Shown here: positions 53,680 through 55,727 of the stretch, piece by piece
Position numbering within the stretch: position 1 is the stretch's first letter
Layout: the number at the start of each line of letters is the position of its first letter
Assembly: GCA_026707325.1 (NCBI GenBank)
Contig: JAPOXA010000110.1
Location: 1 to 64,000, forward strand
Source of the DNA: Acidobacteriota bacterium
GTDB taxonomy: Bacteria > Acidobacteriota > Thermoanaerobaculia > Multivoradales > Multivoraceae
DNA length: 64,000 nt
Direction: 5' to 3'
Notes under the pieces: generated by a model
What the model saw: only the letters and a program-made list of their open reading frames with translations
What the model was told of the DNA's origin: nothing
Database searches by the model: none
Position numbers and translations under genes: made by a program

Positions 53680-55017
53680 ATGCCCGCCGCGATCGCCATC
53701 GTCGGCCGCCCCAACGTCGGCAAATCGACGCTCTTCAACCGGCTGATCGGTCGCCGGCAGGCGATCGTCCACGGCACGCCTGGGGTCACGCGAGACCGCC
53801 TCGTCGGGCGCTTCGAGCTGGAGGGGCAGGGCACGGTCGAGTTGATCGATACGGGCGGTCTGGTTCCGGGCGACGATCCTTTGGGCCTGAATGCCCAGGT
53901 CGAGTCCGCGGTCGAGGAAAGCGAACTCCTGTTGCTCGTCGTGGACGGCAGGGAAGGGCTGGCGGCCGCGGACGAACAGGTCATGGAACGTCTCCGGACC
54001 CGTGGCCGGCCGATCGTCGTGGTGGTCAACAAGGCCGATACCCGGGCCGCCAGGGAGGGCTACCACGAGTTCTACGCCCTGGGCGGAGAGGCCCTGGTGC
54101 TCCTGTCGGCGGAGCACGGCAGCGGCTTCGAGTCACTGCACAGCGAGATCGCCGCCCATCTTCCCGCAGCTTCCGGCGCGGTCCTGTCGACGGCGCCGCC
54201 CGTGGCGGTCGTGGGCCGGCCAAACGTCGGAAAGTCCTCCCTGGTCAACCGTCTTCTGGGCAGGGAACGGACGCTCGTCTCTCCGACCGCCGGAACAACC
54301 AGGGATCCGATCGACAGTCTGCTGGAGCGCGAAGGCGGTCAGGACTACCTGCTCGTCGACACGGCAGGCATCCGGCGGCGTTCCCAGGTCCAGGACACTC
54401 CCGAGGAGCTGGCCGTGATGCTCGCCCGCCGCCAGATCGAGCGCGCGGAACTCGTCGTCCTGGTCGTGGACGCGGGCGAGGGCATAGCTTCCGGAGACCT
54501 TGCGATCGCCGATGTCGCCTGGCAGGCGGGCCGGGCCGCCGTCGTCGTCTGCAACAAATGGGATCTGATGGACGACGGGAAGCGGGAGCGGCTGGAGTCG
54601 GGCTGGGAACGGGTTTCCGAGCTGTTCGCCAGACCGCCTCGAGTCAACGTCTCCGCCCTGACGGGCCGTGGAGTGGGGAACGTCGTGCCCGCGCTCGACC
54701 GGGTTGGCGAGCGGCATCGCCTGCGGGTGCCTACGCCTGAACTCAACCGGGAAGTGCGCCGCATGGTTGGTCGCCACCAGCCGCCGGCGGAGCGGGGGCG
54801 GCCGTGGAGGTTTCTCTACGCGACCCAGGTGGCCGGGGCGCCTCCCACCTTTCTCCTGTTCGCGAACCGGCGTCTCAAGCGTGGTCACAACTACCGGAGG
54901 TATCTCGAGAACAACCTCCGGCAGACCTTCGGGCTTGACGGTGTTCCGCTGCGGCTCGTGGTACGGGAACGGAGGGGAGACGCCGACGAAGTCCGCGGAT
55001 CTTCACGTTTCGTATAA
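53680..55017 (+). CDS. der: Ribosome biogenesis GTPase Der (EngA)
   Basis: 445 residues with two tandem GTPase domains and a C-terminal KH-like domain, the hallmark of Der. First domain: G1 GRPNVGKST at residues 8-16, G3 DTGG, G4 NKAD. Second: G1 GRPNVGKSS, G3 DTAG, G4 NKWD. The KH-like tail includes GVPLRLVVRERR. Required for 50S ribosomal subunit assembly. A TAGCAT hexamer at 53656-53661 could be the -10 of its promoter, 18 bases before the ATG. The preceding inverted repeat separates it from the lipoprotein. Confidence 0.96.
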   Translation: MPAAIAIVGRPNVGKSTLFNRLIGRRQAIVHGTPGVTRDRLVGRFELEGQGTVELIDTGGLVPGDDPLGLNAQVESAVEESELLLLVVDGREGLAAADEQVMERLRTRGRPIVVVVNKADTRAAREGYHEFYALGGEALVLLSAEHGSGFESLHSEIAAHLPAASGAVLSTAPPVAVVGRPNVGKSSLVNRLLGRERTLVSPTAGTTRDPIDSLLEREGGQDYLLVDTAGIRRRSQVQDTPEELAVMLARRQIERAELVVLVVDAGEGIASGDLAIADVAWQAGRAAVVVCNKWDLMDDGKRERLESGWERVSELFARPPRVNVSALTGRGVGNVVPALDRVGERHRLRVPTPELNREVRRMVGRHQPPAERGRPWRFLYATQVAGAPPTFLLFANRRLKRGHNYRRYLENNLRQTFGLDGVPLRLVVRERRGDADEVRGSSRFV

Positions 55018-55097
55018 TCCGCACCGCGGATCACCGCCCTCAAGCCCGGAATCGTCCCCCCTCGTCCGTTGCGCTCGGGTTCAGTTGACGCGTAGCC

Positions 55098-55112
55098 GGG
55101 GAGGCTCCCATT
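55098..55112 (+). promoter_or_regulatory. Strong ribosome binding site leading to an AUU start codon
   Basis: GGGGAGG at 55098-55104 is followed by 5 bases and then ATT at 55110-55112. The upstream in-frame stop is at 55086, and no ATG, GTG or TTG lies in frame between that stop and the TTG at 55146, which is inside the DNA-binding helix. ATT is therefore the only start that keeps the helix-turn-helix intact. Confidence 0.6.
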
Positions 55113-55571
55113 CCCAAGCAGTACAAGATCGCCGACGCGTGCAGGTTGCTGGATATCCAGCCCTACGTGTTGCGCTACTGGCAGACGGAGTTCCCGGCCC
55201 TGGCCTCGAGGAAGGCCGGCGGGGGCCGCCGTGACTTCGATGCCGAGGATCTCGAGACGATTCGTCGGATCAAGGAGCTCCTCTACGACGAGGGGTACAC
55301 GATCGCAAGGGCCAAGAAGAAGCTGGCTGCGGAACTGGAGGAAGGCCGGCTCCGGGGCCGGCCACTGATTCCGGCCACGGAAGACGGGCCGAACGGCGGT
55401 CAGGCGACGGCGGACGAGGCGGGGGAGGAGGCTCCGCCCGTCGACACGAGCGAGATCGGGGCGCTTGCCCGACGCGTCGAGCGGCTGGAAGGGGGAGTCG
55501 CGGCGCTGGTCGCTCAGGCTCGGCAGCTCGCCGCCGAACTCAAGCCGGAAGCGGGCAGGGAAAGCGACTGA
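55110..55571 (+). CDS. MerR family transcriptional regulator (AUU start)
   Basis: 153 residues from ATT 55110. The N-terminal winged helix-turn-helix reads PKQYKIADACRLLDIQPYVL followed by RYWQTEFPAL, as in the MerR regulators found beside ribosome and cell-division genes in Acidobacteria and Deltaproteobacteria. A central helix (KELLYDEGYTIARAKKKLA) is the dimerisation region and the C-terminal half is short and acidic (VERLEGGVAALVAQARQLAA). The TTG at 55146 given in the track would delete the first helix and start at LLDIQ, so it is rejected. It may autoregulate its rare start codon. Lies between der and tRNA-Pro. Confidence 0.75.
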   Translation: MPKQYKIADACRLLDIQPYVLRYWQTEFPALASRKAGGGRRDFDAEDLETIRRIKELLYDEGYTIARAKKKLAAELEEGRLRGRPLIPATEDGPNGGQATADEAGEEAPPVDTSEIGALARRVERLEGGVAALVAQARQLAAELKPEAGRESD

Positions 55572-55650: not shown

Positions 55651-55727
55651 CGGGACGTGGCGCAGTCTGGTAGCGTACCTGAATGGGGTTCAGGGGGTCG
55701 CGAGTTCGAATCTCGCCGTCCCGACCA
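55651..55727 (+). tRNA. tRNA-Pro (GGG)
   Basis: A 77-base cloverleaf. Acceptor arms CGGGACG/CGTCCCG, D arm with loop CAGTCTGGTAG, anticodon stem CCTGA/TCAGG around ATGGGGT (anticodon GGG), T loop TTCGAAT and encoded ACCA at the 3' end. It stands 18 bases before ribH on the same strand. Confidence 0.97.

Follow-up and report, generated by a model that had tools for sequence, protein, structure and literature searches.

Translation of a gene for a MerR-type regulator (merR) in a genus of Acidobacteriota starts at an AUU codon, a conclusion strongly supported by comparison of the sequences of 21 species. This codon is located at position 55110 of the window, i.e. the whole stretch of 64,000 nucleotides of DNA analyzed here. 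Our full reading, for which we estimate a probability of about 0.8, is that merR translation from this AUU is weak because IF3 rejects the codon, and that the resulting low dose of the regulator is held by selection in the genus. The protein would be initiated with methionine at AUU, and its translation may be weak by design and IF3-sensitive, by analogy with sigR of Streptomyces. Low dose would then be the selected benefit of the AUU codon.

The AUU codon of merR and its conservation

The source genus belongs to the Thermoanaerobaculia and is known only from assembled genomes. It includes Candidatus Multivorans thiocomprendens, as placed by named relatives. The genus set comprised 21 species genomes (the source and 20 further), all of which have merR. 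Clade A contains 14 of these genomes, and clade B the 7 others, whose proteins have down to 56% identity to the query. The features of the locus, all on the + strand, are as follows.

55013..55018, +, TATAAT, probable -10 element of the merR promoter (TATAAT in all clade A, TATAGT or similar in clade B)
55086..55088, +, TGA, in-frame upstream stop that closes the frame (read from the sequence)
55098..55104, +, Shine-Dalgarno site GGGGAGG, 5 nt before ATT (GGGAG, GGGGAGG or GGAAGG kept in all 21 genomes)
55110..55112, +, AUU start codon (ATT in 21/21 genus genomes, within invariant CATT[CT]CC)
55110..55571, +, coding sequence of the MerR-type regulator with AUU start, 153 aa (coding constraint sets in sharply at ATT when genomes are compared)
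55146..55148, +, TTG, codon 13, rejected alternative start (TGG in genome G011; codons 3-12 under purifying selection in clade A)
55651..55727, +, tRNA-Pro(GGG), conserved downstream neighbour of merR (locus comparison)

The product of 55110..55571 belongs to the MerR family, with a match to Pfam MerR_1 (E 3.6e-18, 65.9 bits versus a cut-off of 21.6). Its DNA-binding domain is weakly similar to those of CarH, MlrA and HspR, and it resembles the CarH/MlrA type in having MerR_1. However, the scores of 23.8, 32.4 and 26 bits for CarH, MlrA and HspR, respectively, are far below the curated NCBIfam equivalog cut-offs of 400, 417 and 105. Moreover, the protein has only 153 residues and, unlike CarH and MlrA, did not match any domain for binding of a ligand or cobalamin.

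The sequence-only reading of this DNA had proposed a MerR regulator starting at AUU. It pointed to a strong GGGGAGG that precedes ATT 55110 by five bases, and to the absence of any in-frame ATG, GTG or TTG from the stop at 55086 to TTG 55146. The Shine-Dalgarno site is indeed present, with a 5-nt spacer at 55105-55109. Reading of the codons that follow TGA (CGC GTA GCC GGG GAG GCT CCC ATT CCC AAG CAG TAC AAG ATC) also bore out the lack of a canonical start. In the oriented loci, ATT is found directly 5' of the conserved protein in all 21 genus genomes, and ATG, ATC or ATA in none. GGGGAGG mostly lies about 5-6 nt before ATT in clade A. In clade B, GGGAG is present about 7-8 nt before ATT and two extra codons follow it. 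Both codon and Shine-Dalgarno site are conserved across species (21/21), as expected for a conserved non-canonical start.

Outside the genus, merR has a canonical start in 105 of 105 distinct relatives (ATG in 69, GTG in 27 and TTG in 9). The genome G021, from the same family, reads ATG AGC AAG ACC TAC AAG where the genus has ATT CCC AAG CAG TAC AAG. With ATG at the same codon in G021, the simplest history is that an ancestral ATG became ATT in the common ancestor of the genus, where the change would have been fixed and then held by selection. The window belongs to a fragmented assembly (209 contigs), and a sequencing or assembly error could have made ATT. The alignment of relatives, suggested earlier as a check, excludes such a read error: the same ATT is present in 21 assemblies of different species and ATG occurs only outside the genus. 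The probability of this explanation is negligible.

Alternative starts and coding constraint

Gene finders would tend to choose TTG 55146 as the start, leaving ATT as an unused codon, and codon 13 is TTG, GTG or ATG in 20 of the 21 genus genomes. However, among the clade-A genomes it is TTG in 13 and TGG in G011. Furthermore, the pairwise differences in codons 3-12 of clade A are 115 synonymous versus 0 nonsynonymous. Together, these observations indicate that the region before TTG 55146 is translated in clade A, where coding constraint begins at ATT. The corresponding counts in clade B are equivocal, with 23 synonymous and 30 nonsynonymous differences. TTG 55146 also has no Shine-Dalgarno site at a useful distance. 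As anticipated in the sequence-only reading, a protein starting there would lack the beginning of its DNA-binding domain, since the MerR_1 match begins at the tyrosine of codon 5. The TTG start is thus ruled out for clade A, and we regard it as extremely improbable in general.

Translation could also begin at an in-frame canonical codon further upstream, the position of which would differ between species; ATT would then be an internal isoleucine codon. The frame does remain open upstream in clade B and in five clade-A genomes, and it contains GTG or TTG there, but at non-homologous places. In nine of the 14 clade-A genomes such a start is impossible: the frame is closed by a stop 6 or 8 codons ahead of ATT, and the codons between the two include no ATG, GTG or TTG. 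Between the upstream stop and codon 13, these nine genomes contain no such codon, and in G011 codons 1-14 also lack one. At least some orthologues thus have no usable in-frame canonical start. Across species, the frame upstream of ATT is shifted by indels and is without coding constraint. Isoleucine codon usage provides another argument against this possibility. In 286 conserved coding pairs from two clade-A genomes, isoleucine is encoded by ATC (90.9%), ATT (8.1%) and ATA (1.0%), and ATT is common to both genomes at 140 of the 494 isoleucine sites with ATT in either (28%). An internal isoleucine codon would therefore mostly be ATC, and it is very unlikely that an internal ATT would stay constant over 21 species including the distant clade B. 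This usage suggests that ATT is invariant because it serves as a start signal. The stops in nine genomes and the indels across the clade led us to reject the upstream start, to which we leave only a slight chance.

A coarse screen was performed on 400 kb compared between two clade-A genomes, roughly a tenth of the genome. Of the AUU, AUC and AUA codons preceded by a shared Shine-Dalgarno site, only that of merR marked an abrupt transition from unconstrained to constrained sequence. The 12 columns before its ATT contain 0 synonymous and 8 nonsynonymous or gap differences in this two-genome comparison. From their coding context, the other AUU, AUC or AUA candidates seem to lie inside longer frames. 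A loose, similar start test was passed by 101 canonical codons of the same 400 kb, each with a Shine-Dalgarno-like site shared by both genomes. A filter that considers canonical codons as far as +10 or +12 misses merR owing to the TTG at codon 13. The version of the screen reported here recovers merR as its own positive control, earlier versions being too noisy. As far as tested, this lineage does not appear to have loose start rules. We also observed that an lpxB-like ORF of G009 (within G009:C1:1700001-2100000) has no in-frame canonical start near its conserved N-terminus, at the place where G017 has ATG, possibly because of a local mutation or error.

Probable promoter, leader and gene neighbourhood

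TATAAT 55013-55018 sits just after der. From its sequence, it would be the -10 element of the merR promoter, and the leader would then measure about 85 nt. No good match for a -35 element was found in a promoter scan. An inverted repeat (TCCGCGG/CCGCGGA, 54992-55030) surrounds the -10 element; it was examined in one species and is given no weight here. Folding of the merR leader was no better than that of shuffled sequences in five genomes (z 0.5 to 1.8), and the only Rfam matches above threshold were to tRNA. A structure sequestering the Shine-Dalgarno site or a known riboswitch was rejected on these grounds. Control, if any, most likely resides in the codon itself. The 16S rRNA, sought with RF00177 for its anti-Shine-Dalgarno sequence, was not found in G000, G007, G009 and G019, although G019 is a single contig with 98% completeness. 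Since 5 of 14 control genomes were negative too, this is perhaps a limit of the search or the result of masked data.

In six relatives of the same class, merR has TATAAT 6-8 nt upstream of its ATG or GTG start; in a dozen other relatives, a TAGGAT motif precedes the merR start by 6-24 nt. These positions suggest leaderless or very short-leader merR mRNAs in such relatives, unlike the leader of about 85 nt in the genus.

The regulator had been described as lying next to der, tRNA-Pro, ribH and nusB, and this was confirmed at the locus, with der upstream and the three others downstream. Among 56 loci examined, 38 have merR with tRNA-Pro(GGG) close by, nearly always downstream of merR. These include loci from Nitrospirota, Myxococcales, Eisenbacteria and one alphaproteobacterium. 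On this gene order, merR and tRNA-Pro(GGG) appear to be an old gene pair across phyla.

Proposed regulation and comparison with known systems

Translation of merR would start at AUU 55110, guided by the strong Shine-Dalgarno site on the leader, which would make the weak codon easier to recognize, as in the Streptomyces and Staphylococcus cases described below. Pairing of AUU with the fMet-tRNA anticodon is imperfect, and IF3 would therefore reject most initiation complexes. The amount of regulator made would thus be low, and its synthesis would increase as the ratio of IF3 to ribosomes falls. The infC gene is known to be autoregulated by its own product, through its non-canonical start. In the genus studied here, infC is the other clear case of a non-canonical start, located elsewhere in the genome (near 103642-104124 of G000:C184). 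Its sequence is AGGAG...ATC GCA in 21 of 21 genomes, and the frame contains no canonical start. Such an ATC (AUC) start is expected if IF3 discriminates, and gives indirect support to control of merR by IF3. Standard gene finders would probably misplace it. More tentatively, the MerR regulator could be a sensor of the IF3-to-ribosome ratio that is co-controlled with infC, its regulon following translational capacity. AUU would then have been specifically selected, rather than any weak codon. We consider this extension possible, though doubtful.

AUU may also be the true start but merely weak, tolerated by drift and without regulatory meaning. Low expression suits many regulators, and the lack of a conserved leader structure fits with this explanation. 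On the other hand, ATT does not vary among the 21 species, whose protein identity falls to 56%, and switches from AUG to AUU are exceedingly rare. In a published survey, one such switch was reconstructed among 61,358 ancestral AUG starts, about 1 in 60,000, versus 2-4% for changes of GUG and UUG to AUG (PMC5622118). Drift thus seems unlikely, yet deserves attention, and we favor a weak AUU start held by selection.

The closest parallel is sigR of Streptomyces. Its GTC start, found in 32 of 34 species with GTT in the other 2, is repressed by IF3, and the stress response becomes deregulated when a canonical codon is put in its place; infC of Streptomyces starts with ATC (PMC5472188). Like sigR, merR encodes a transcription regulator and has, throughout its genus, a non-canonical start behind a strong Shine-Dalgarno site; infC starts with ATC in both genera. 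However, the codon is AUU instead of GTC or GTT, and SigR is a sigma factor, not a MerR protein. Moreover, repression by IF3 was shown by experiment for sigR, whereas we infer it for merR. In Staphylococcus aureus, the conserved AUU start of cvfC1 and AUA start of ccpN give about 10% of the expression obtained with AUG in poor medium (PMC13009471). These genes share with merR conserved non-canonical starts, strong Shine-Dalgarno sites and a known or putative regulatory function. They are from another phylum and other protein families, and their initiation was mapped and measured. In Escherichia coli, the AUU start of infC and pcnB limits translation (cited in PMC9410913). The start codon is the same as in merR, but neither of these two genes encodes a transcription regulator, and infC is autoregulated.

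Genus-wide AUU starts are very rare, with infC, pcnB and a few recent cases. We know of no earlier case from Acidobacteriota besides infC. Gene finders limited to ATG, GTG and TTG misplace AUU starts, and for merR the consequence is that the beginning of the DNA-binding domain is lost. Many genera could be screened in the same way, for non-canonical codons that follow a Shine-Dalgarno site and at which divergence abruptly becomes synonymous-only. With merR, a MerR-type regulator joins the short list, including sigR and ccpN, of regulators whose dose is apparently set by a poor start codon. This list suggests a recurrent way of holding transcription factors at low, IF3-responsive levels.
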